The notes beneath the pieces were generated by a model. The model was not told where the DNA came from and ran no database searches. It was given only the letters and a program-made list of their open reading frames with translations. From Methyloversatilis sp. RAC08 (GTDB lineage Bacteria; Pseudomonadota; Gammaproteobacteria; Burkholderiales; Rhodocyclaceae), in the NCBI RefSeq assembly GCF_001713355.1, contig NZ_CP016448.1:2232001-2296000 (forward strand): 64,000 bases of DNA. The letters are read 5' to 3'. Below are positions 8,048 to 59,079 of the stretch, in pieces. Both the position numbers and the translations under genes were made by a program. Each line of letters begins with the position of its first letter. Position 1 is the stretch's first letter.

Positions 8048-11026
8048 ATGCACGACAGGGATATGTCCATCGATGAGGAATCGAAGCGCCTCGACACACT
8101 GAGGCGCTACGACATACTCGACACGCCGCGTGATGAACGTTTCGACAACATCACCGCGCTGACGGCCGAACTCATGCAGGTTCCGCTGGCCATGGTCACC
8201 CTGGTGGATGCCGACCGTCTGTGGTTCAAGTCGGCGCACGGTCTCGATGTGCGCGAGATTCCGCGCTGCAACGGGCTGTGCTCGTCCGCCATCCAGCAGG
8301 ACGGCGCCTACATCGTCGAAGACGCCCGGGCGTCGCCGGTCGAGCGCGACCACCCCTTGGTCACCGGCCCGCTCGGCCTGCGCTTCTACGCCGGCGTTCC
8401 GCTCAGGGCAGACGACGGCCGCGCCCTCGGTGTGCTGTGCATCGCCGATCGTCAGCCCCGCCAGCTCGCCGCGCGCGCGATCGGCCAGCTGCAGGCGCTG
8501 GCCCGGATGGTGATGGACCAGTTCGAGCTGATGCGCGCGCTCAGGCAGGTCACCTCGATCGCCGAAGACGACAGGCGCTTCAAGCTGCTGTTCGACAAGA
8601 TCGCCGATCCGATGCTGTTGCTCGACGCGGCGTCGGGCGTTTTCATCGACTGGAATCCGGCAGCGATGGAAATGCTCGGTTATCCGAATCGGGACGAAAT
8701 CCGTGCCCTCAGCCCGGCCGACATTTCGCCGCGGCGGCAGCCGGACGGGCGCGATTCGGCCGAGAAGGCCCTGGAAATGAATGCCATCGCTGCGCGCGAA
8801 GGCAGCCACCGCTTCCAGTGGGCCATCTGCAGTCCGTACCGCGACACGCTGGTCATCGAAGTATTGCTCACCGCGCTGACTATGCAGGGCCGCCAGGTGT
8901 TCATCACCACCTGGCGCGACCTGACGTCGCAACGGCTTGCCGAGCAGAAGCTGCTCGACAGCGAAATCCGCTGGAAATTTGCCATCGAAGGTTCGGGAGA
9001 CGGGCTGTGGGACTGGAACATCCCCGACAGCACAGTCTTCTTCAGCCGGCGCTGGAAGAGCATGCTGGGCTTCGAAGAGCACGAAATCGGTTCGGATCTG
9101 ACGGAATGGACATCGCGTGTGCATCCGGATGACATGTCGTCGGTGATGGCGGATGTGCAGGCACACATACGCGGCGAAACCACGACCTACATCAACGAGC
9201 ACCGCGTGCGATGCAAGGACGGTGCGTACCGCTGGATACTCGATCGCGGCAAGGTCGTCAGCCACGATGAAGCCGGTGAGCCGTTGCGCATGGTCGGTAC
9301 GCACACCGACGTGACCGATCGCCGGCGCGTGCTGATGGAGCTGGAAGCCGCGGAGTTCGGCCACCGTGCATTGCTCAACGCGATGGCCGACGGCGTGTTC
9401 GTGTCGCAGGACTTCCGCTTCGTGTTCAGCAACCCGGCGCTGCCGCACATGCTGGGCTATGCGCCGGATGAATTCACCGGCCTGCGCTTCGACCAGATCG
9501 TACATCCTGATTTTCTCGATCTGTGGACCGAGCGCTTCGTTCAGCGCATCAGCGGTGCCATCGAACCGGTGCGTCAGTACGAGGCGAAGTTTCTGCGCAA
9601 GGGGGGTGCCGAGGTCATCTGGATCGAACTGATCGCTTCGCGTTTCATGTTCCAGGGTGCACCGGCGGTGCTCGGCATCGTGCGCAACATCAGCGAGAAG
9701 AAGAAGACCGAGGACATCATCTGGCGTCAAGCCAATTACGATGCGCTGACGCAGCTGCCCAACCGGCTCATGCTGCTCGACCGGCTCGATCACGAAATAC
9801 GCCAGTCTCGCCGCACCGGTCAGCCGCTGGCGGTCATGTTCATCGACCTCGACCACTTCAAGGAAATCAACGACACGCTCGGCCACCACCGCGGCGACCT
9901 GCTGCTGCAACTGGCGGCTCAGCGCCTGTCGTCCTGTCTGCGGGATACCGATCTCGTGGCACGACTGGGCGGCGACGAATTCACGGTCGTCGTGTCAGGG
10001 CTCGACGACATGGACACGGCCGAGCGCATCGCGCAGAACATCCTCGATGCCCTGCAGCGCCCTTTTCATCTCGAATCGGAACTTGTGTACGTGACGGCCT
10101 CGATCGGCATCACGCTCTATCCGCATGACGCGCGCTGCATCGAAGATCTGCTCAAGCAGGCCGATCAGGCGATGTACGACGCCAAGCATCTGGGGCGCAA
10201 CCGTCTGAGCTATTTCACCCCGTCGATGCAGCAGCGTGCGGAAAAGCGCATGCGCCTGGTCGGTGACATGCACGAGGCCATCGCGAAAAAGCAGTTCTAC
10301 ATGGTGTATCAGCCCATCGTCGATCTGGCGACCGGGCAGACACGCAAGGCCGAAGCGCTGATCCGCTGGAACCACCCGGAGCGCGGCATCGTGTCGCCGG
10401 CCGATTTCATTCCGATTGCCGAAGAAACCGGCCTCATCATGGAACTGGGTGACTGGATTACGCGCACCGCGCTGGCCTTCGCGCTCTATCTCGAGCAGCA
10501 GTTCGACGCCCCGGTGCAGATCAGCGTGAATCAGTCACCGGTGCAGTTCCGCAACAAGAAGTCGCAGTATCCCGACATCGTGCAGGTGTTGCTTCAGGCC
10601 GGTGCCTCCGGCGAACTGGTCACGGTCGAAATCACCGAAGGCACGCTGCTCGACGCCGATGCGCAGGTGCTCGACAAGCTGCATCGCATGCGTGAAGCGC
10701 ACGTACAGGTGTCGCTGGACGATTTCGGTACCGGCTACTCGTCGCTGTCCTACCTGAACAAGTTCGCCATCGATTATCTGAAGATCGACCGCTCGTTCGT
10801 GCAGGGGCTGGCGCCGCATTCGAGCGAACTGGCGCTGTGCGAGGCGATGATCGTCATGGCGCACAAGCTGGGCATCAAGGTGATTGCCGAAGGCGTGGAA
10901 ACCGCCGAACAGCGCGACCTGCTGATCGTGGCGGGCTGCGACTATGCACAAGGCTATCTGTTCGCCCGCCCGCTTACCGCCGAGGCGTTCGAGGCCTTCC
11001 TCGCCGACGCCCCGCAGCCGCTGTGA
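8048..11026 (+). CDS. GAF-PAS-PAS-PAS-GGDEF-EAL c-di-GMP turnover protein
   Basis: About 992 residues from the ATG at 8048 (an upstream in-frame ATG at 7907 adds low-complexity sequence). Order of domains: GAF (about 15-165), three PAS domains (about 175-300, 310-430, 440-560), GGDEF (about 570-735) and EAL (about 745-990). The diguanylate cyclase half has an intact ARLGGDEF at about residue 641, preceded by an RDTD inhibitory I-site. The phosphodiesterase half keeps EALIRW, the DDFGTGYSS loop, KIDRSFV and AEGVE, so both activities are possible. No transmembrane segment is seen, so it is probably a cytosolic sensor whose signal enters via GAF or PAS. It is isolated from other signalling genes. 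Confidence 0.92.
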   Translation: MHDRDMSIDEESKRLDTLRRYDILDTPRDERFDNITALTAELMQVPLAMVTLVDADRLWFKSAHGLDVREIPRCNGLCSSAIQQDGAYIVEDARASPVERDHPLVTGPLGLRFYAGVPLRADDGRALGVLCIADRQPRQLAARAIGQLQALARMVMDQFELMRALRQVTSIAEDDRRFKLLFDKIADPMLLLDAASGVFIDWNPAAMEMLGYPNRDEIRALSPADISPRRQPDGRDSAEKALEMNAIAAREGSHRFQWAICSPYRDTLVIEVLLTALTMQGRQVFITTWRDLTSQRLAEQKLLDSEIRWKFAIEGSGDGLWDWNIPDSTVFFSRRWKSMLGFEEHEIGSDLTEWTSRVHPDDMSSVMADVQAHIRGETTTYINEHRVRCKDGAYRWILDRGKVVSHDEAGEPLRMVGTHTDVTDRRRVLMELEAAEFGHRALLNAMADGVFVSQDFRFVFSNPALPHMLGYAPDEFTGLRFDQIVHPDFLDLWTERFVQRISGAIEPVRQYEAKFLRKGGAEVIWIELIASRFMFQGAPAVLGIVRNISEKKKTEDIIWRQANYDALTQLPNRLMLLDRLDHEIRQSRRTGQPLAVMFIDLDHFKEINDTLGHHRGDLLLQLAAQRLSSCLRDTDLVARLGGDEFTVVVSGLDDMDTAERIAQNILDALQRPFHLESELVYVTASIGITLYPHDARCIEDLLKQADQAMYDAKHLGRNRLSYFTPSMQQRAEKRMRLVGDMHEAIAKKQFYMVYQPIVDLATGQTRKAEALIRWNHPERGIVSPADFIPIAEETGLIMELGDWITRTALAFALYLEQQFDAPVQISVNQSPVQFRNKKSQYPDIVQVLLQAGASGELVTVEITEGTLLDADAQVLDKLHRMREAHVQVSLDDFGTGYSSLSYLNKFAIDYLKIDRSFVQGLAPHSSELALCEAMIVMAHKLGIKVIAEGVETAEQRDLLIVAGCDYAQGYLFARPLTAEAFEAFLADAPQPL

Positions 11027-12076: not shown

Positions 12077-13768
12077 ATGAACATCCAGTTCCGACCCAAG
12101 CTGATTGACACGCTGCGCGGCTATGACCGCGGGCAGTTTTCCGGCGACCTGTCGGCCGGCATCACGGTCGGCGTGCTCGCGCTCCCGCTGGCCATGGCGT
12201 TTGCGATCGCCAGCGGCATGTCGCCGACCGCCGGCATCTGGACCGCCATCGTCGCCGGCTTCCTGATTTCCGCCCTCGGCGGCTCGCGGGTGCAGATCGG
12301 CGGCCCGACCGGCGCCTTCATTCCCATCATCTACGCCATCGTCGTCGATTACGGCGTACAGAACCTGCTGATCGCCACCATGATGTCCGGCGTCATGCTG
12401 CTGGCCATGGGCGCGTTCCGGCTCGGCAGCATGATCCGCTTCATCCCGCTGTCGGTCGTCATCGGCTTCACCAACGGCATCGCGGTAGTCATCTTCGTAT
12501 CGCAGATCAAGGATTTTCTCGGTCTGCGTGTCGACAGCCTGCCGGGCGAATTTTTCGGCAAGATGGAAGCGCTCTACCGGGCGCTGCCGACGCTCGACGG
12601 CGCCACGCTCGCGCTGTCGTGCGCCTCGCTCGCCGTACTGCTGGGCTGGAACCGGCTGGCCAAGGAGGTCGCATGGATGCGTCGCCTGCCCGGCCCGCTC
12701 GCGGTGCTGGTCATCGCGACCGCGGTGAATGCCTTCATCCTGCTGCCGGTCGACACCATAGGCAGCCGCTTCGGCGGCATCCCGCGCGAGCTGCCGGACA
12801 TCGGACTGCCGGCGCTGTCGTTCGGCCTGCTCGGCAAGCTGATCGCGCCGGCACTGACCATCGCGCTGCTGGGTGCCATCGAATCGCTGCTGTCGGCGCG
12901 CATCGCCGACAGCCAGATCGACGACCGGCACGACCCGAACCAGGAACTGATGGCGCAGGGCATCGCCAATGTCGCGGCGCCGCTGTTCGGCGGTTTTGCC
13001 GCCACCGGCGCCATCGCGCGCACCGCGACCAATGTGCGCACCGGCGGCCGCACACCGGTGGCCGGCATCATCCACGCCGGCGTGCTGCTGACCATCGTGC
13101 TGGCGCTGGCGCCTCTGGCCAGCCACATTCCGCTCGCCACCCTGTCGGCCATCGTCGTCGTCGTGGCGGTCAACATGGGCGAGTGGCACGCCTTCGCGCC
13201 GAAGGAACTGGCGCGCTACTCGACCGCCTACCGCACCATCCTGCTGGCCACCTTCTTCGTCACCGTGGTGTTCGACCTGACGCTGGCGGTCGAACTGGGC
13301 ATGGCGCTGGCCAGCCTGTTCTTCATCTACCGCATGTCCGACCTGACGCGCATCGAGCGCCTGCCGCTCGAGGACTTCTACGGCGTCGAGGCGCTTGCCC
13401 GGCCCGACGGCACACCGCGCATCCTGGCCTACCGGCTGACCGGGTCGCTGTTCTTCGGCGCCGCCAACAAGCTGGAAAATCTGCTGCTGATGCAGGACGG
13501 TCACCCGGACGCGGTCATCCTCGACCTGGAAAAGGTGATCAGCGTGGACACGACTGGGCTGGACATCCTGCAGACGCTGCAGCGCAACCTCGCTCGGCGC
13601 GGCGCCACGCTCATCCTGTGCGACCTGAACGAACAGCCGGGTTCGCTGATCCGCCGCTCGGGCTTCGCCGACCGGCTGGGCGAGGAGAACATCGCCGGCA
13701 ATCTGACCGATGCGCTGCTGCGCGCGCAGACGGTGATGCCCCGAAACCCCGGCGTGTCCTACGTCTGA
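12077..13768 (+). CDS. SulP family anion transporter with STAS domain
   Basis: A 563-residue protein with 10 or more hydrophobic segments. It starts with the family hallmark DLSAGITVGVLALPLAMAFAIASG and continues with GGSRVQIGGPTGAFIPI and NVAAPLFGGFAATGAIARTATN. The C-terminal 120 residues form a cytoplasmic STAS domain with ISVDTTGLDILQTL. SulP proteins move sulfate, bicarbonate, chloride or dicarboxylates by symport or exchange at the inner membrane; sequence alone does not tell which. No carbonic anhydrase or sulfur-assimilation gene is adjacent. It is convergent with the coiled-coil gene, 30 bp apart. Confidence 0.88.
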   Translation: MNIQFRPKLIDTLRGYDRGQFSGDLSAGITVGVLALPLAMAFAIASGMSPTAGIWTAIVAGFLISALGGSRVQIGGPTGAFIPIIYAIVVDYGVQNLLIATMMSGVMLLAMGAFRLGSMIRFIPLSVVIGFTNGIAVVIFVSQIKDFLGLRVDSLPGEFFGKMEALYRALPTLDGATLALSCASLAVLLGWNRLAKEVAWMRRLPGPLAVLVIATAVNAFILLPVDTIGSRFGGIPRELPDIGLPALSFGLLGKLIAPALTIALLGAIESLLSARIADSQIDDRHDPNQELMAQGIANVAAPLFGGFAATGAIARTATNVRTGGRTPVAGIIHAGVLLTIVLALAPLASHIPLATLSAIVVVVAVNMGEWHAFAPKELARYSTAYRTILLATFFVTVVFDLTLAVELGMALASLFFIYRMSDLTRIERLPLEDFYGVEALARPDGTPRILAYRLTGSLFFGAANKLENLLLMQDGHPDAVILDLEKVISVDTTGLDILQTLQRNLARRGATLILCDLNEQPGSLIRRSGFADRLGEENIAGNLTDALLRAQTVMPRNPGVSYV

Positions 13769-13798: not shown

Positions 13799-14716
13799 CT
13801 ACCGACCGTCGTCACGGTTCCTGGCGAGATCGGCCATCTGTCGGGTCTGCTCGTCGAGCGCGCGCTGCCGTTCCTGCTCCTGCGCCTTTTCCAGCTGCGC
13901 GCGCAACTCGTCGAACTGCTGGTCGAGTTTGGCCTGAAGGGCCTGCTTCTCGTCGGCGCTCTTGTCGGCATGACGCTCGTCGAACTTCTCCTGCAGCGTG
14001 GCGAGCTTGCCGTCGAGTTCCTGCTTCTTCTGTTCGTACTTCTCGTCGATGGCTGCGATGGCCGGGTCGACATCCATCCGGACCTGCTGCGACATCGCGA
14101 GAATGGCGGCTGGCTGTTCCGGAAAAGCTGCGCCACCGGGCAGCTGATAAATGCCTGTTTCGGCAAGGCTGCGTTCCTGCGGCGCCGCGGGCTGCGGCAG
14201 CGGTTCGAGCGCCCGTTCCGCCGGCTGCGGTGCTTCCGGCGCCTGGATTTCCTGCTGCTTCGACGTCAGCACGCCCGCTGCAAGCGCCCCCATCATCAGC
14301 ATCGCATCCAGCGGACTGGGTGTTTCCGCGGCCTGAAAAGCCTGATCGGTGTTGATGCCCGGTGCGATCTGCACCTCGGTATTCAGCGTCGGAGGCAGAT
14401 CCGGGTCGATGATCTTCGCCGCGTTCTGAGCCAGATCGGCAAAGTTCTCGATCCGCTTCCGTTCGTCATCGATCCTGACCAGATCATTCAACTCCTGACG
14501 GGCAAGTGCCAGGTCCTTCGTCGTCTGTTCGATCTGCGCGTCAACCCGCGCGATCTCGACCGTGATTACCTCCGGCGCGCGTGACGACGGCACGATGTCG
14601 TGGCCGGAGTGCGGCGACAGTTCGGCAGCCTGCCGTGCAATCGCAAGTTCGTTCAACAGCACGCCGCGCTGTATCGCCAGACGCTCCAGTTCGAGCCGAT
14701 AGTCGGGACTGCTCAT
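13799..14716 (-). CDS. Coiled-coil protein, partner of the VirD4-like ATPase (unknown function)
   Basis: I do not recognise the family. The 305-residue protein has an N-terminal helical, acidic coiled-coil (about 1-105), a hydrophobic patch (LDAMLMMGALAAGVLT, about 133-148) and a Pro/Ala/Gln-rich linker. The C-terminal part is a long charged coiled-coil from about 215 to the end, rich in Gln, Glu, Lys and Asp. There is no signal peptide. The gene starts 37 bp after the VirD4-like gene on the same strand, so the two are probably co-transcribed. It could be an adaptor, substrate or structural partner of that ATPase; this is inference from position only. Confidence 0.7.
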   Translation of the reverse strand: MSSPDYRLELERLAIQRGVLLNELAIARQAAELSPHSGHDIVPSSRAPEVITVEIARVDAQIEQTTKDLALARQELNDLVRIDDERKRIENFADLAQNAAKIIDPDLPPTLNTEVQIAPGINTDQAFQAAETPSPLDAMLMMGALAAGVLTSKQQEIQAPEAPQPAERALEPLPQPAAPQERSLAETGIYQLPGGAAFPEQPAAILAMSQQVRMDVDPAIAAIDEKYEQKKQELDGKLATLQEKFDERHADKSADEKQALQAKLDQQFDELRAQLEKAQEQERQRALDEQTRQMADLARNRDDGR

Positions 14717-14753
14717 GGGGTCACTCCGGATGGCTGGCCAACGTGGCCCGGAT

Positions 14754-16874
14754 TCATACGCTGCCCATGCGCGCCTTCAGGTCTTCATTGCGCCACGCAT
14801 AGTCCTTGCTGACCTTGGCCGGACGCGTCGCCAGACCGAGCACGATCTGCTGTTCGCGGTAGTTGGGGCCGGCCAGTTCCGACGCCTCGACCAGCTTCTT
14901 GCGCGAACCATCAAGTGCGTCGACGAAACCGATCTCGTCCGACAGCCGTTCGGCCAGACCGTCGGCGCCGGTCGGGTTCATGAAGATGCGTACCGCGCAG
15001 CTGCCCAGCATGCCGTCCGCGTTCTTGTAGGCATTGCGCAACTGTCCCACGCTCTGCGCGAACATCCACAGCCGCAGGCCGTACTTGCGGCCGATGTTGA
15101 GTGCCTCGTCGACCGGCGGCATTTCCTTCAGGCGCGGCAACTCGTCGAGCATGATCAGGATCGGTGCCGAACCGCGCGCCGGCACCTTGCCTCCGGTCAG
15201 CATGCGGATGTGCTGGCCGATGAACACGCGCAGCAGCGACAGATAGGATTCGACCGCATTCGGCGGCACGACGATGTAGATGGTCGGGTTGCTGCCGCTG
15301 CGCAGATCTTCCGGGCTCCAGTCGGAGCGATCGGTGATGCGCGCCACGCGCTCGCCGGTCCATGCGTTGAGGCTGGAACGTGCCGTCTGCAGCACGCTGG
15401 AACGCGTCTTCTCCGGCATTTCGCCGAGTGCGGTGGCGGTCTGCATCATGACGCGCACATCCACGGCGATCTTCAGTTCGAGAATCATGGTGTCCCACGC
15501 CTCGCCACCGAACATCACGTCAAGCACCGCATGCATCGGACGCTTTTCGGGCGGGTTCTGGTAGCACACGTTGGCGATGGCGGCGCACAGCACGGTGCGC
15601 GCCTCGTTCTCCCAGAACGGATCGGCTGCCCCGCTCGGCACGATCATCATGTCGGCCAGCAGGCGGGCATCTTCCCAGATGAATTCCGGTGCACTGCGCA
15701 CGAAGGCGAGCGGGTTGTAGTGGTGACTCTGGTCCGGTTCGAGTGGGTTGAAACGGAATACCGGCCCGACGTTTTCGGCCCGCCACTTGCTGGTGTTCTC
15801 GTAGATGTCGCCCGACACGTCGAGCACGACTGCCGGTCCCGGCCACGCCAGCAGATTCGGAAATACGTTGCACTGCGTCTTGCCCGACCCGGGCGGCGCG
15901 ATGGTGACCATCGATCCTTCACCGGAATAGGTCAGCGGCGTACCGTCGGCAAACGAGCCGATATACAGCGGGAAACCGCCTGACTCGGCGAATACGGTCT
16001 TGCCGATGTCGGCCGGCCGCAACCAGGTGCTGCCGCCGCCGATCAGCTGATCGCTGGCGTCCTGCACGAGCTCGCGGATGCCGGCCGGCAGATCGGGCTT
16101 GCCCTTCAGTTCGGCGAGATGGCTCAGGATTTTCGTGATGACGTTGTCGACTGAAAAATGGAGTCGCTCGACGGCATGGTCGAGCGCCTGACGCGGTGTC
16201 TTGGCTTCGTTGTTTGCATTGCCCAGATTCCACTGCGACGCGCCGCTGGTCCCCTTGCCCTGCGACCACACGAGCGCAAATCGCCAGCCACGGTAGAGTG
16301 CATCCTTGCCGTCGGCCGAACTGTTCAGCAATTCGGCGATGCGCAGGAACTCGCGTTCCTTGTTGTCCATCGCCGCCAGGCTGCGGCTGACGGTTGTCCA
16401 GTAGTAAGCGTCCTTCCAGCGGTCGTCCTCGCCCGCGTACTGCCATGTGCAGTAGTGGCTCACTTCAAGCGTCTGCGATCGCTCGGTGAACAAGGCATCG
16501 ATGACCGGCACGCGCGCCGCATGGGTCGGGCCGAGGCTTTGCAGCCATTGCTCGGCCGCTTCGTCAGCCTTCTTCTTCAGATCCTTTTCCTTCGAGTAGG
16601 TCACCTTTTCGGCGCCCTTGGGCTTGAACCACAGCCAGCCGCAGAAACCGAGCACGATGGCGCTGCCGAGGATATCGAGCACCCAGGTCGCGATGACGCC
16701 CACGATGATCGCGACGACGTGCTGTCTGAACCACTGCGGCAGGAAGGCGGCGAAGTCCGCCGGCACGGTGGCCGAGTGGGCGCCTGCCAGCGCCTTGCGG
16801 TGCCAGAAGAACCCGATCGCTACAAAGCCGGCCAGAAAGATGCCAATGCTGAACAGCCTGAAGAAGAACTCCAT
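14754..16874 (-). CDS. VirD4/TraG-like type IV coupling ATPase (orphan)
   Basis: From the ATG at 16874 the protein is 706 residues. Two membrane segments lie at about 3-22 and 47-75. A charged region without recognisable domain follows (about 85-300). The P-loop ATPase has TIAPPGSGKTQCNVFPNLL (Walker A near 325) and ILIMLDELPRLKEMP (Walker B near 575). VVLDVSGDIYENTS, HHYNPLAF and GLRLWMFAQSVGQL are typical of VirD4/TraG coupling proteins, hexameric pumps that feed DNA or protein to a type IV secretion channel. No relaxase, VirB or mating-pair gene is present on either side. Its role here is therefore open: a remnant, or a separate system together with the coiled-coil gene. Confidence 0.85.
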   Translation of the reverse strand: MEFFFRLFSIGIFLAGFVAIGFFWHRKALAGAHSATVPADFAAFLPQWFRQHVVAIIVGVIATWVLDILGSAIVLGFCGWLWFKPKGAEKVTYSKEKDLKKKADEAAEQWLQSLGPTHAARVPVIDALFTERSQTLEVSHYCTWQYAGEDDRWKDAYYWTTVSRSLAAMDNKEREFLRIAELLNSSADGKDALYRGWRFALVWSQGKGTSGASQWNLGNANNEAKTPRQALDHAVERLHFSVDNVITKILSHLAELKGKPDLPAGIRELVQDASDQLIGGGSTWLRPADIGKTVFAESGGFPLYIGSFADGTPLTYSGEGSMVTIAPPGSGKTQCNVFPNLLAWPGPAVVLDVSGDIYENTSKWRAENVGPVFRFNPLEPDQSHHYNPLAFVRSAPEFIWEDARLLADMMIVPSGAADPFWENEARTVLCAAIANVCYQNPPEKRPMHAVLDVMFGGEAWDTMILELKIAVDVRVMMQTATALGEMPEKTRSSVLQTARSSLNAWTGERVARITDRSDWSPEDLRSGSNPTIYIVVPPNAVESYLSLLRVFIGQHIRMLTGGKVPARGSAPILIMLDELPRLKEMPPVDEALNIGRKYGLRLWMFAQSVGQLRNAYKNADGMLGSCAVRIFMNPTGADGLAERLSDEIGFVDALDGSRKKLVEASELAGPNYREQQIVLGLATRPAKVSKDYAWRNEDLKARMGSV

Positions 16875-17176
16875 GCGTGCTGACTCCCGGTTGATCGGCA
16901 CTCCGCATCGGGCCGGAAACGGTGACGTGTCCGTTCCGGCGCCGCGTCGTTCTGCGGCGCGCGGATGCACCAGTTTTTTGTATCGAGCTGTCGAACGGGG
17001 CTGACCACCCCAAGGGGAGTTTGCGGGTGCTGGCGCGCACGCGCAAGGCTTGCGGCACACGATCGACCGATCGCGAGGCACGATGACAGGTCGCCCGATA
17101 CGTCAATCGACGTATTGGCGCGCGAACCATCGTTCGCACAATGGACAGTTGATTCCATTCTGCCAGCGAGGATTTC
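16875..17176. promoter_or_regulatory. Divergent control region between virD4-like gene and amiE
   Basis: No gene is seen in these 302 bases. They hold a GC-rich hairpin (16939-16945 with 16954-16960) and an imperfect one (16912-16922 with 16931-16940). Near amiE there is a perfect operator-like palindrome ATACGTC-AATC-GACGTAT (17098-17115). The amiE start is preceded by a GAGGA ribosome site. I cannot assign -35/-10 boxes with confidence. Confidence 0.4.
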
Positions 17177-18217
17177 ATGCACCACGGAGACATTTCGAGC
17201 AGCAAGGACACGGTCGGCGTCGCGGTCGTCAATTACAAGATGCCGCGCCTGCACACCAAGGCCGAAGTACTCGACAACGCACGCAAGATCGCCGACATGC
17301 TGATCGGCATGAAGGCCGGCCTGCCGGGTCTCGATCTGGTCATCTTCCCGGAATACAGCACGCACGGGATCATGTATGACTCGAAGGAAATGTATGACAC
17401 GGCGACCACCGTACCCGGCGACGAGACGGCGATCTTTGCCGACGCCTGCCGCAAGGCCAAGGTGTGGGGCGTTTTTTCTCTGACCGGCGAACAGCACGAG
17501 GAACATCCGAACAAGGCGCCGTACAACACGCTCATCCTGATGAACGATCAGGGCGAGGTGGTGCAGAAGTACCGCAAGATCATGCCCTGGGTGCCGATCG
17601 AGGGCTGGTACCCGGGCGACTGCACCTATGTGTCCGAAGGCCCGAAGGGCCTGAAGGTCAGCCTGATCATCTGCGACGACGGCAACTACCCGGAAATCTG
17701 GCGCGACTGCGCGATGAAGGGCGCCGAACTGATCGTGCGCTGCCAGGGCTACATGTATCCGGCCAAGGAACAGCAGATCATGATTTCGAAGGCCATGGCC
17801 TTCGCCAACAACGTCTATGTCGCGGTGTCTAATGCGGCCGGCTTCGATGGCGTGTATTCCTACTTCGGCCACTCGGCCATCATCGGCTTCGACGGCCGCA
17901 CGCTGGGCGAATGCGGCGAAGAAGAGATGGGTCTGCAGTACGCCGCGCTGTCCAAGAGCCTGATCCGCGACTTCCGCAAGAACGGCCAGTCGGAGAACCA
18001 TCTGTTCAAGCTGCTGCACCGCGGCTACACCGGCCTGATCAATTCGCGCGAAGGCGACAAGGGCGTGGCGGCCTGCCCGTACGACTTCTACTCGAAGTGG
18101 ATCAACGATCCGGAAGGCACGCGCAAGGCGGTCGAGGCCTTTACGCGCGACACCGTCGGCACCGAGGAATGTCCGATCGAAGGGCTGCCCAATCCGGCCA
18201 CCGTCGGCCACAAGTGA
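17177..18217 (+). CDS. amiE: Aliphatic amidase AmiE
   Basis: A 346-residue enzyme of the nitrilase superfamily. The start [20 protein letters not shown], total length and internal blocks match the aliphatic amidase of Pseudomonas closely. The catalytic triad is in place: Glu59 in FPEYS, Lys near 134 in KYRKIMPW, and Cys near 166 in [10 protein letters not shown]. It hydrolyses short aliphatic amides such as acetamide and propionamide to the acid and ammonia in the cytoplasm, as a hexamer. The stop codon overlaps the GTG of a MoxR-type ATPase, as in the ami operon of Pseudomonas, where amiB follows amiE. Formamidase is the nearest alternative, but sequence and length favour AmiE. Ammonia release fits the urease cluster elsewhere in the window. 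Confidence 0.92.
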
Positions 18218-54676: not shown

Positions 54677-55450
54677 TTACACCTTCGTACGACGGCGGGC
54701 AGCGAAGCCGATCAGGCCCAGACCGGCCAGCAGCATGGCGTAGGTCTCGGGTTCCGGCACGGCGGTGACCGGCGCGAAACCTTCGAAAGTCGCCGTGCGC
54801 AGCGGCGGCGACATGCCGTCGATGCTCGGTGCCTGGCGGATGGTCACCGCGTCCACCAGGTAGGTGAATTCCGTCGCGTTGGTCTTCAGTACATACCAGC
54901 CGGTCGTCGCATTGCCTTCTTCGACCGAAATATCGGTGCGGAAGTCGACCACATTGTCATCGAACACATCCACCGGGTTGGTCGGGCGGGTGCGCACACC
55001 GTTCGACGTGTGAGCCGTCGATTGCAGGCGGAAGTCGCTGTTCGTGCCCGAATCGTACCAGCCGACCGACACGTCATAGTTGGCGTAGCCGCGACGCAGG
55101 ATGTCGTTGATTTCGACATCGTATTCCACATTGCCGACCGAAATTTCGCCGATATCCATCTCGAAGCGCGACGCAAACAGCAGCGTATTGTCGATGGTGT
55201 TGCGATAGACGAAATCATAGAAGGTGCCGAGGTCGACACCGTCATAGATCACCGAACTGATGCGGCGCGCTGCGCGGGTGTAGCCTTCGTTCAGCGGATT
55301 CCAGCCGAAGCCGAGAAACAGCGGATCAGCAGCCGCATTGTTGACACCTTCAACGCGTAGCGTACCGCTTTCCGGCAAGGCGACAAAGGCGTGCGCAGCG
55401 TGGGCGCCCAGGCCCAGCATCAACGACAATGCGATGGTTTTGATTCTCAT
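54677..55450 (-). CDS. PEP-CTERM protein A of a tandem pair
   Basis: A 257-residue secreted protein with a signal peptide (IKTIALSLMLGLGAHAAHA) and a body with no known enzyme motif. The C-terminus AVPEPETYAMLLAGLGLIGFAARRRTKV is a textbook PEP-CTERM signal. The phrase FYDFVYRNTIDNTLLFASRF matches the neighbour at 55493-56356 (IYDFVYRDSRDNKLVFGTRV), so the two are paralogs. They are 42 bp apart on the same strand and probably co-transcribed. Exported and anchored by exosortase. Function unknown. Confidence 0.88.
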   Translation of the reverse strand: MRIKTIALSLMLGLGAHAAHAFVALPESGTLRVEGVNNAAADPLFLGFGWNPLNEGYTRAARRISSVIYDGVDLGTFYDFVYRNTIDNTLLFASRFEMDIGEISVGNVEYDVEINDILRRGYANYDVSVGWYDSGTNSDFRLQSTAHTSNGVRTRPTNPVDVFDDNVVDFRTDISVEEGNATTGWYVLKTNATEFTYLVDAVTIRQAPSIDGMSPPLRTATFEGFAPVTAVPEPETYAMLLAGLGLIGFAARRRTKV

Positions 55451-55492
55451 GATGTTGACCTTTTTGTTGAGTGATGCAGAAAACTTCGGGTG

Positions 55493-56356
55493 TCACGCGC
55501 GCATGCGACGACGCGCGATCACGCCGATCATGCCCAGGCCGGCGAGCAGCATTGCGTAGGTGGATGGCTCCGGAATCGGCGCGGTGTTCGTCGGGATAAA
55601 TCCGCCGGTGAACGCCTTGACTACCGGTTGGCTTTCTTCGCCTGCCTGAAAGTAGCCGATCGCGTTGTCGGCATAGGTGTAGTACGTCGCGTTGGTTTTG
55701 ATCAAATACAACCCGCTGTATGGGTTGCCTTCCGATAGATTGATGTCTGACTGGAAGCTCACTGCGTCCGGATCAAAGACATCCATTTGCTTTAGACCCT
55801 GATCGCTTCGCGCAGCACTGTACAGGCGCAAATCGAAGTTCGATAGAAATAACCACGCTGCTGCTGCGTCGAATGTGGTGCCGTCCTCCTCGAAACCATA
55901 GCGGAAGACGTTATTCAGCTCGGCATTCTGCTGCTGCCCTGGAAGCCCCAGAAGGACGCGAGTACCGAACACCAGTTTGTTGTCACGTGAATCGCGGTAA
56001 ACAAAATCGTAGATATCACCAATCGCCTGTCCGGCGAGTTGGACGTCCTCGTTCAACCTGTACTCAAGAAGCGACAAAGTGCCGCTTCCGGTCACTGCTA
56101 GTGTGTCAGTTGAGCGAGCGTTATAGGTGATGCTGCTTGCAATGAGCGGAATATTCCTGTTTCTGACATCTTGGAATGATTCCGTTATCGTCATCATTGT
56201 GATGTTAGTTTCAAGGTAATAGATGTCGGTCAGCTGGTTGTTGGATGCGCTGAGCCGTAGTGGAAATGATTTGTTCAATTCAACAAAATCACCCGCTGCC
56301 GCGCCCAAGCTGGCGCCTACCAATACTGTCGCGACTGCGACGTGCACTAATTTCAT
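55493..56356 (-). CDS. PEP-CTERM protein B of a tandem pair
   Basis: A 287-residue paralog of the preceding gene. Start at the ATG at 56356, preceded by an AAGGAGAT ribosome site; the longer frame to 56512 is not needed. Signal peptide VHVAVATVLVGASLGAAAG, Asn/Asp-rich beta-like body, and PEPSTYAMLLAGLGMIGVIARRRMRA at the end (PEP motif, helix, Arg tail). Its coding sequence is noticeably more AT-rich than its neighbours, which may reflect recent acquisition. It follows the TonB receptor gene on the same strand by 122 bp. Confidence 0.87.
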   Translation of the reverse strand: MKLVHVAVATVLVGASLGAAAGDFVELNKSFPLRLSASNNQLTDIYYLETNITMMTITESFQDVRNRNIPLIASSITYNARSTDTLAVTGSGTLSLLEYRLNEDVQLAGQAIGDIYDFVYRDSRDNKLVFGTRVLLGLPGQQQNAELNNVFRYGFEEDGTTFDAAAAWLFLSNFDLRLYSAARSDQGLKQMDVFDPDAVSFQSDINLSEGNPYSGLYLIKTNATYYTYADNAIGYFQAGEESQPVVKAFTGGFIPTNTAPIPEPSTYAMLLAGLGMIGVIARRRMRA

Positions 56357-56478
56357 GATGCGATCTCCTTTTTGAAGTGTTTCAGTGTGAGGCGATGACT
56401 CGGCGGACACATGACGGATTCGGCTGTGCCTCTTGTTGTAATCGATCCTTGTCCGATCGATGGAAAGCGATCCGGTGC

Positions 56479-59079
56479 TCATGACCCGAATGCGTAGTTG
56501 AGGCCGAACCACACGGCGCGCGGCGCACCGGGGCCGACGAAAAGCGAATGCGTCCAGTCGAACGAGTTGTAATTGAATCCTGAGGAATCCCGCGCGCCGA
56601 ACGATCCGGATGTGAATGGATTGACCGCGAGGTCACCGGCGGTGGTGTATCGGCGGTCGAAAATGTTGTCGACCTTGCAGAACAGGGAAATATTTTTGTC
56701 TACGCGGTAATTCGCATTGAAATTGAATACCGCGAAGCCGGATGTCCTGCCCTTGCCGACGTAGCGTTTTCCAAGGCCGGGGATTTGCGAATTTCCAGTC
56801 AGATCCGTGCCACCCGGCTCTGATTCGTTGTTTTCGTTGCCGCGTGCAAACACGAAGGATTGCGCCACCATCGAGAATCCGAAGGTGAAATTGCTGGTGA
56901 CATCCATATTCCAGCCGAGTCGGAACGAATGCTTCGGAAGCCCCGGGATGACGTCGCCCGGATTGATTTCGAAGTCGTTCACACGCCCCTGGGTACGATC
57001 CGCCGAGCTGTTCGACTGATTGACGATGGTCGCGCTCGATTCGAAGGTGGCGTTCAGGCGGCTGTAGCCGGCACGCAGCGAATGGCGACCGAATTTGCCT
57101 TTCAGATTGAGTTCGAAACCGTCGCGTTCGGTTTTGCCGAAGGTGTCGAACACGCCGCGGTTGCGCTGGCCGAGCGACACGAACAGGATGTCGTCGGTCA
57201 GTTCGGTCCGATAAGCCGTGGCGCTCCAAGACAGCTGGCCGTTCAGACTGGTACCCCTGAGACCGAGCTCCGTCGTCAGCGACCGGACCTGAGGCAGGAA
57301 AGGGTCGGAGGTCAGCGAGGTGGGAATCGTGCAGCCGAGATTCTTGCCGTCATTCAGCCCGTTGGGATCCTCGAGCGTCTTGTCGCGAGCGCAGCCCAGT
57401 TCGATGACTGACGGCACGCGGGAACCGCGACTCACGTTGCCATAGACGTTCAGGTCCTGTGCCGGCAGCCATGAAACACCGAGCGACGGATTCAGGCTCC
57501 GGTAGCCGTAGTCGCCCGTTGAACAAAGAAATCGAGCGCCAACGTCCGAGAGGGTCCCGCACACGGGTTCTCGACTGTTGAAGAAATTGGACGTGAATTG
57601 ATAGAGCGGAATCGGTTTGTCCGACTGCAGTTCGTTCTTGACCCGCGAGTAACTGAGCCGTGCGCCGTAGGTGATGAACAGGTTGGGGGCAGCGGTCCAC
57701 GTGTCACTGAAGAAAAACGCCGCCGTTCGGCTCGAACCGGTCAGATTATTGCGCGTGATGTCCTGACTCAGTGCCAGCAGGCCCAGATCCGCTTCCCGCG
57801 ACGGATCGAGAAATACGGAACGTTCGGAATCGATGAAGCCGAGCCGCTGGCTCTGCCGGAAGTCGACGTCGCTCCAGTCGAAGGAACTGCCGACGACGAT
57901 CTGGTGCGTTTCGCTGATCTGCGTGAATTGCAGGGCGACGCCTTCCGAGCGCTGATCCGAGCGGCTGAAATTGAACAGCCCGTTCGGCGCCACCCCGGCA
58001 CACCCCGGGTAGGTCGGCCCGATGTTCTGGTCCAGCGCGCCATTCGGCGAACCGAAACCGTCCGGGCAACTGACGCCCAACCGGTTTGCGCTGGCACCCT
58101 GGTCGAAGTCGTCCCACACGTCGCCACCCGTGCCTTTCTGCTTCAGGTCACGGCGATACATCTGCAGGGCGATGCTGGATGAGTCGCTGACGTCGAAACG
58201 GATGCGACCGGTCAGGTGGTTCAGGTCGTTGACGTTCTCGTCCGGTGACGTGAAAACCGAATTCGGGCTTTCACGCCACTGTTCTTCCGGGATCAGGCCG
58301 TTGCCGACCAGAATGTTCTCCGCCTTCAGCAGGCTCAGCGTGGCTTCTGTCGACCTGCCGCGGATGTCGACACGGCCGAAGTACTGACGCACGCTGGTCG
58401 GCGAGTTGGTTCGCCAGCCATCTTCATCGAACTTGTTGAGCGCGAAGAATCCGGCCAGCGGGCCCGAATTGCCACCCGCGGCAAGCTGGTACTGGCGTCG
58501 GCCAAACGCACCGCCAAGAGCGGAAAACTCCACTTTCGGGCTGGTAAAGCCCGATTTCGTATTGACCGAGATCGCACCGCCCAGCGTGTTGTGGCCGAAC
58601 ATCGGATTGGACCCGGGCAGGAGGTCCATGCGCAGGATCGCGATATTGGGGATCAGGTCCCAATTCACGACATCGCCAAACGCTTCGTTGATGCGCACCC
58701 CGTCGAGATATACCGAAAGGCCCTGCGGCGTGCCGATCAGCGGCGACGCCGCAAAGCCGCGGAAATTCAGATCCTGCTGGAACGGGTTGCCCGCGTAGTC
58801 ATTGACATTGATCGACTGGAACTGCAGGTTCATCGCTTCCGTCAGCGATACGGCGCCGGACTGCTGCAGTTCGTCGCCGGTGAGGCTCTGGACGTTCGAC
58901 GTCGATTGCTGCTCGTCGAACACCACGCCTGGCAGCGGCGTGATCATGCGCGGTGCGCGGATCTCGACCGTCGGCAGTTCCTTGACCGGTTCTTCCTGCG
59001 CGCAGACGACGGCACTCGCGCTCAGCAGGGCGAGCGCGACCGGGGTCAGGCGAAATGTCTGGGGGCGCGAGGGTTTCAT
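56479..59079 (-). CDS. TonB-dependent outer-membrane receptor
   Basis: An 866-residue receptor. Signal peptide (LTPVALALLSASAVVCAQ), a TonB-box-like region (ELPTVEIRAPRM), and a plug domain with SLTGDELQQSGAVSLTEAM, LSVYLDGVRINEAFGD and GGAISVNTKSGF. A long barrel follows, ending in aromatic GLNYAFGS. The ligand cannot be read from sequence. The nearest genes are the PEP-CTERM pair and, further on, pqq. Siderophore, cobalamin or metallophore uptake are options; no cobalamin riboswitch was seen in the leader. Confidence 0.9.
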   Translation of the reverse strand: MKPSRPQTFRLTPVALALLSASAVVCAQEEPVKELPTVEIRAPRMITPLPGVVFDEQQSTSNVQSLTGDELQQSGAVSLTEAMNLQFQSINVNDYAGNPFQQDLNFRGFAASPLIGTPQGLSVYLDGVRINEAFGDVVNWDLIPNIAILRMDLLPGSNPMFGHNTLGGAISVNTKSGFTSPKVEFSALGGAFGRRQYQLAAGGNSGPLAGFFALNKFDEDGWRTNSPTSVRQYFGRVDIRGRSTEATLSLLKAENILVGNGLIPEEQWRESPNSVFTSPDENVNDLNHLTGRIRFDVSDSSSIALQMYRRDLKQKGTGGDVWDDFDQGASANRLGVSCPDGFGSPNGALDQNIGPTYPGCAGVAPNGLFNFSRSDQRSEGVALQFTQISETHQIVVGSSFDWSDVDFRQSQRLGFIDSERSVFLDPSREADLGLLALSQDITRNNLTGSSRTAAFFFSDTWTAAPNLFITYGARLSYSRVKNELQSDKPIPLYQFTSNFFNSREPVCGTLSDVGARFLCSTGDYGYRSLNPSLGVSWLPAQDLNVYGNVSRGSRVPSVIELGCARDKTLEDPNGLNDGKNLGCTIPTSLTSDPFLPQVRSLTTELGLRGTSLNGQLSWSATAYRTELTDDILFVSLGQRNRGVFDTFGKTERDGFELNLKGKFGRHSLRAGYSRLNATFESSATIVNQSNSSADRTQGRVNDFEINPGDVIPGLPKHSFRLGWNMDVTSNFTFGFSMVAQSFVFARGNENNESEPGGTDLTGNSQIPGLGKRYVGKGRTSGFAVFNFNANYRVDKNISLFCKVDNIFDRRYTTAGDLAVNPFTSGSFGARDSSGFNYNSFDWTHSLFVGPGAPRAVWFGLNYAFGS

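Follow-up and report, generated by a model that had tools for sequence, protein, structure and literature searches.

In a 64,000-nt stretch of the genome of the methylotroph Methyloversatilis sp. RAC08 (NZ_CP016448.1, 2,232,001-2,296,000; the whole stretch is called the window, and coordinates are window-based unless a locus is named), a VirD4/TraG-type ATPase is encoded together with a coiled-coil partner protein. Judged from sequence comparisons, the pair is conserved, moves horizontally and stems from a clade of mobilization ATPases; in most hosts no type IV secretion system (T4SS) was detected. VirD4/TraG-type motors normally pump DNA out of the cell in bacterial mating, and coupling ATPases are usually taken as markers of conjugation. 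We read the pair as a module that spreads horizontally and functions without a T4SS, most likely as an anti-invader or element-competition device, with a probability of about 0.4.

Occurrence of the pair without a secretion apparatus

The ATPase gene runs on the minus strand from the ATG at 16874 through an intact frame to the stop at 14754 and encodes 706 aa; the partner gene (13799-14716, 305 aa), also intact, lies downstream across a gap of 37 bp, and GGAG-like sites precede both start codons. The pair is flanked by SulP-type transporter and amidase genes; no relaxase, VirB or phage gene adjoins it, and neither an integrase nor a relaxase gene lies between SulP and amidase. In these respects the original prediction, made from the window alone, was borne out: it had described a complete VirD4/TraG ATPase with two membrane helices and both Walker motifs, a coiled-coil protein without a known family, intact frames for both genes, and flanks free of relaxase, VirB and phage genes.

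The host genome is one contig (3.94 Mb, 99.96% complete) with a single T4SS-DNA_transf protein. It contains no match to the VirB4 family PF03135, VirB4-like families outside PF03135 not being covered, and no match to the relaxase families PF03432 or PF03389, other relaxase families not being covered. VirB4 is the signature of all described T4SSs (PMC12857230). The same search was extended to the 16 genomes of the solo clade, the ATPase group that includes the window protein; these are the host, five congeners and ten others, several of them drafts. VirB4 (PF03135) was not found in 14 of the 16, the exceptions being Tistrella and Blastomonas, and the MobA/VirD2-type relaxase (PF03432) was not found in the same number, again with Tistrella (below the family cut-off) and Blastomonas as exceptions. 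The MobA/MobL-type relaxase (PF03389) is present in Blastomonas and one Verrucomicrobium. In most of these hosts the pair is conserved without detected VirB4 or MobA/VirD2-type relaxase genes, and a location always inside a conjugative element, which would have refuted the original prediction, is not seen.

Distribution and phylogeny

A genome scan gave 15 loci with relatives, mostly full-length. Those outside Methyloversatilis, which are 45-60% identical, belong to Tistrella, Blastomonas, Mycobacterium asiaticum (two strains), Azoarcus (two), Aquabacterium, a gammaproteobacterial metagenome-assembled genome (MAG) and two Verrucomicrobia, and intact pairs occur in three phyla. The pair is rare: a search of 200 genomes of the order at E 1e-60 gave no further genome, and relatives occur in 2 of 398 genomes of the phylum sample (including the host), 2 of 198 Mycobacterium and 2 of 385 genomes sampled from the alphaproteobacterial class. 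Viral contigs yielded no relative, and phages gave motor-level matches only (21-30% identity).

The tree of the motor recovers the 13 solo members as monophyletic (support 100/99) and nested in a group with nine plasmid or integrative mobilizable element (IME) members (100/100); the program warned of long branches meeting, including at the join to the canonical type IV coupling proteins (T4CPs). The tree departs from host taxonomy, with Mycobacterium among Proteobacteria and the Verrucomicrobia pairing with Azoarcus, and because of this departure the pair is considered to move horizontally. At L036 (L and G codes are locus and genome labels), a tyrosine integrase gene stands beside a tRNA gene; no att repeats were found around the tRNA genes of L035 and L036.

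The sister group consists of coupling ATPases of mobilizable plasmids and IMEs, and a relaxase gene is close by at all eight mobile loci (L045, L046, L048, L049, L050, L099, L100 and L101), seven confirmed by Pfam and L101 by annotation. Two G499 loci (L082 and L083) carry a short related ATPase and a partner on elements with a second T4CP gene (Pfam-confirmed at L082); the relaxase is Pfam-confirmed at L082 and was found near L083 by genome search. On our reading, the motor was captured from mobilizable elements.

Several mobile loci also carry other genes. The G499 elements include a Gabija-like GajA/GajB pair (L083, 12743-16708) and, directly after the pair, a PD-T7-1-like gene (L082, 11757-13211). 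In the G803 element (L099, 2-2131 and 12612-14798), SIR2-type and PDC-S46-type defence proteins are encoded beside the relaxase and a fused ATPase that belongs to the wider clade.

Architecture of the ATPase

The AlphaFold2 model of the ATPase (mean confidence, pLDDT, 79) comprises transmembrane (TM) helices, an N-domain and a TrwB-like motor. Residues 270-704 superpose on TrwB with Z 33.7 and rmsd 3.4 over 387 aligned residues, including the all-alpha region. The protein matches Pfam T4SS-DNA_transf strongly (E 2.8e-61), and its best NCBIfam T4CP subfamily model gives 152.4 bits, far below the cut-off of 674 for full-length subfamily members. Walker A is kept in 13 of 13 aligned members, with the variants APPRSGKT (L035) and APPGAGKT (L043) and an invariant GKT; similarly, the Walker B region LDELPRL is invariant in all 13. 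The TM anchors vary, from zero in the Mycobacterium and G499 members to several in Verrucomicrobia. In the Aquabacterium MAG (L041, ~10000-10100), a frame change, possibly a sequencing error, breaks the ATPase in two; its upstream frame codes for a signal-like segment, a helical stretch and a TM helix, and for the beginning of the N-domain.

A charged region of about 200 residues before the motor, which the original prediction could not assign, corresponds to residues ~96-292 and forms a separate folded domain in the AlphaFold2 models (modelled alone: pLDDT 85, predicted TM-score (pTM) 0.79). Foldseek searches against PDB and BFVD returned no match at E 0.001, and VIA-align gave a best Z of 3.0; a missed fold is possible. 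A hidden Markov model (HMM) of this domain, trained on ATPases only, matches the C-terminal part of both G499 partners (2.7e-6 and 1.1e-4), which indicates that the N-domain has moved between motor and partner. Motor and partner are linked by this finding, because in G499 the domain sits in the partners instead of the motor.

Fast evolution of the partner

No Pfam family scores above its cut-off in the partner; the closest is FlxA (24.6 bits against a cut-off of 26.3), which reflects the coiled coil only. In PADLOC-DB 2.0.0, its only matches are ZorA3 (0.0027) and a type I restriction endonuclease model (0.68), both at coiled-coil level. A coiled-coil gene adjoins the ATPase gene on the same strand at each of the solo loci; it follows the ATPase gene in all of them but those of Mycobacterium, where it lies upstream (301 and 320 aa). 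Held-out HMMs recovered the C-terminal segment above shuffled controls in Azoarcus, Aquabacterium and L043 (Verrucomicrobia), while the proteins of L035, L036, L042, L044 and Mycobacterium did not exceed the controls and are partners by position and coiled-coil character only. Most partners end in Arg, and partner genes are open throughout. At L043, three tandem partner-like genes are present, two with a nearly identical C-terminus. Neither plasmids (by tblastn) nor phages gave partner homologues. In Mycobacterium asiaticum, the coiled-coil gene is immediately preceded by a gene that matches PqqD weakly (L037, 8385-9002; L038, 8326-8931); the match in L037 (E 0.0016) is below cut-off, this gene is 70% identical between the two strains, and a three-gene module is suggested.

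Compared with the congener G207, the window shows 92-99% identity in the flanks, in the partner C-terminus and over most of the ATPase, whereas identity falls to 21-54% in most 100-bp bins of ~14060-14760. By this pattern, the N-terminal two thirds of the partner have been exchanged as a cassette between two Methyloversatilis species. In addition, the partner is 53% identical within Mycobacterium, against 86% for the ATPase, and 51% against 74% within Verrucomicrobia. On these identities the partner diverges faster than the ATPase.

Insertion site and selection in Methyloversatilis

Six of 13 Methyloversatilis species carry the pair at the SulP-amidase site, with extra genes alongside in L077 and L078. 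In five others, SulP and amidase are directly adjacent, the junction being spanned by segments of 135-301 bp, and in L074 (1798-3880) a major facilitator superfamily (MFS) transporter gene stands there together with one for an AraC-type regulator. Reading frames are open in all Methyloversatilis copies, and the ratio of nonsynonymous to synonymous substitution (dN/dS) of the ATPase is 0.067-0.205, values that argue against decay and place the ATPase under purifying selection.

The junction itself is variable: MFS and AraC-type genes occur in three genomes (L074, 1798-3880; L077, 2779-12700; L078, 2567-4700), and that of L077 holds ~10 kb extra. Upstream of the amidase, the palindrome ATACGTC-GATT-GACGTAT (minus strand, window 17098-17115) is imperfect in the empty-site relatives and is probably a regulator site of the amidase. 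Elsewhere in the window (54677-56512), two neighbouring genes with PEP-CTERM-like C-termini occupy a low-G+C stretch. The features of the locus are listed in Table 1.

Table 1. Features of the ATPase-partner locus, in window coordinates
Feature	Position	Strand	Basis
VirD4/TraG-family ATPase, 706 aa	14754..16874	-	Pfam T4SS-DNA_transf 2.8e-61; model matches TrwB
ATPase TM helix 1, residues 2-30	16785..16871	-	AlphaFold2/DSSP helix, hydropathy
ATPase TM helix 2, residues 53-83	16626..16718	-	AlphaFold2/DSSP helix, hydropathy
ATPase N-domain, residues 96-292, alpha/beta fold	15999..16589	-	Predicted alone, pLDDT 85, pTM 0.79
Walker A APPGSGKT, residues 326-333	15876..15899	-	Alignment of 13 members
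Walker B ILIMLD, residues 572-577	15144..15161	-	LDELPRL invariant, 13 members
Coiled-coil partner, 305 aa	13799..14716	-	Same-strand neighbour in all solo-clade loci
Swapped cassette: partner N-terminal two thirds and intergenic gap, ends approximate	14060..14760	-	Identity drop vs G207
Partner conserved C-terminal coiled-coil segment, residues 215-305, terminal Arg	13802..14074	-	Held-out HMM test
SulP-type transporter, left edge of insertion site	12077..13768	+	Same neighbour in occupied and empty sites
Amidase, right edge of insertion site	17177..18217	+	SulP-amidase junction in five pair-less Methyloversatilis genomes

Putative function of the pair

In the anti-invader or element-competition reading, the ATPase would assemble into a hexameric ring, which in members with TM helices would sit at the inner membrane, and the partner would dock via its C-terminal coiled coil, perhaps onto the N-domain. 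The variable region of the partner could recognise a changing target, and the machine would grip and translocate DNA that is invading or mobile, or else a DNA-bound protein, inside the cell. Tentatively, and with more doubt than confidence, the pair may define a new two-gene anti-invader class, spreading between phyla, in which a coiled-coil specificity subunit that swaps cassettes turns a captured coupling ATPase on incoming DNA. The logic would resemble that of the proposed HerA/FtsK anti-invader systems, whose motors are described as acquired from mobile elements and whose sensory domains as evolving fast (PMC10853773, PMC12839542); searches of these two papers found no mention of VirD4/TraG, and our literature searches found no description of this ATPase-partner pair. 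The original prediction had preferred a separate two-component machine, and this preference is supported, with a captured motor and a cassette-swapped partner as refinements.

Several points weigh against such a role. Pfam detects no nuclease or effector domain in the ATPase or the partner, and no PADLOC-DB 2.0.0 model matches the ATPase. In the solo-clade neighbourhoods (73 open reading frames), PADLOC gave no confirmed defence gene, and among the matches listed (the 25 commonest families) only single-protein UvrD-type or related ones appear. The searches for mating-pair formation and relaxase genes covered PF03135, PF03432 and PF03389. Physical contact between the two proteins, DNA binding and an anti-invader effect are putative. 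A defence-island setting for the solo clade was rejected, as the UvrD-type matches are in keeping with the housekeeping UvrD encoded next to the Mycobacterium loci.

The pair could also be a stranded mobilization coupling protein with its partner: the remnant of a mobilizable element that still serves to couple a foreign relaxosome, or DNA, to T4SSs arriving on conjugative plasmids and is kept or re-spread by such transfers. The relaxase genes near the sister group on mobilizable plasmids and IMEs, and the short ATPase with a partner at the G499 IME loci, are consistent with this. However, most hosts have no detected relaxase or VirB4, the site in Methyloversatilis is stable, and the Mycobacterium members lack TM helices, which are needed for DNA transfer by T4CPs such as TrwB; T4CPs lacking the TM domain are also listed (PMC7434980). 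We regard this explanation as unlikely.

The contrast between the conserved C-terminus of the partner, frequently ending in Arg, and its variable N-terminus might instead point to an export device, in which the motor pushes the partner, tagged by this segment, across the inner membrane without a T4SS channel. The three tandem partner-like genes per motor at L043 and the two TM helices of the window ATPase would suit this. It is nevertheless improbable: no channel gene was found, some members have no TM helices, and the G499 partner bears the N-domain of the motor, which fits a subunit better than a substrate. The tag occurs at a single locus per genome, so that there is no repertoire of substrates; an effector repertoire, for which several tagged proteins would be expected as for T4SS effectors, was rejected on this ground.

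Quite improbable as well is an accessory motor handling the host chromosome or plasmids, in segregation or repair, without an anti-invader role. The motor fold is common to FtsK and HerA and the chromosomal site lies amid metabolic genes, but the occurrence is patchy (6 of 13 Methyloversatilis species, 2 of 198 Mycobacterium), and cassette swapping of the partner is not predicted by a host function. A non-functional relic of a past mobile element, to which the absence of any remaining secretion apparatus might point, is very improbable, because the Methyloversatilis copies are all open, ATPase dN/dS is low and intact pairs span three phyla, with Walker motifs intact in 13 of 13 aligned members and open partner genes throughout; the original prediction had likewise argued against decay.

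In general, a monophyletic multi-phylum branch that mostly lacks detected relaxase and VirB4 and that has a dedicated, rapidly swapped partner and an unrecognised N-domain fold suggests motors rebuilt for another purpose. An isolated 'TraG' annotation need not indicate a conjugative element. The pair is small and has cultured hosts (Azoarcus indigens, Tistrella mobilis), so its function is directly testable.

Comparison with known systems

The window locus is not an IME by the usual combination of integrase and relaxase, since it has neither. The ATPase shares with VirD4/TraG T4CPs the T4SS-DNA_transf motor with Walker A and B, the TrwB-like fold and the N-terminal two-helix anchor, but it falls below the subfamily-model cut-off and has neither a relaxase alongside (PF03432/PF03389) nor VirB4 (PF03135) in the host. 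TrwB of R388 and Cag-beta of H. pylori resemble it in the fold of the motor, all-alpha region included (Z 33.7 for TrwB, 31.8 for Cag-beta); they are only 14-21% identical and work with a T4SS, whereas the window ATPase has an extra N-domain and no detected T4SS. Closer to it are the T4CPs of mobilizable plasmids and IMEs with MobA/MobL or MobA/VirD2 relaxases (Rhizobiales plasmids; G499 and G803 IMEs), which fall in the same ATPase clade (100/100) at ~30-42% identity over the aligned part. The plasmid T4CPs have a related N-domain (HMM E 9e-4 to 0.3, weak in some); these T4CPs differ in having a relaxase gene nearby and, in the plasmids, no partner homologue by tblastn. The HerA/FtsK anti-invader systems (DndH; proposed BREX-related capture systems) differ in that the window pair has no detected nuclease or modification partner, lies outside a defence island and has a motor clearly nearer to T4CPs; with them it shares the motor superfamily, the model matching the DndH C-domain with Z 25.9 over 330 aligned residues and HerA with Z 16-20, and a fast-evolving companion part.
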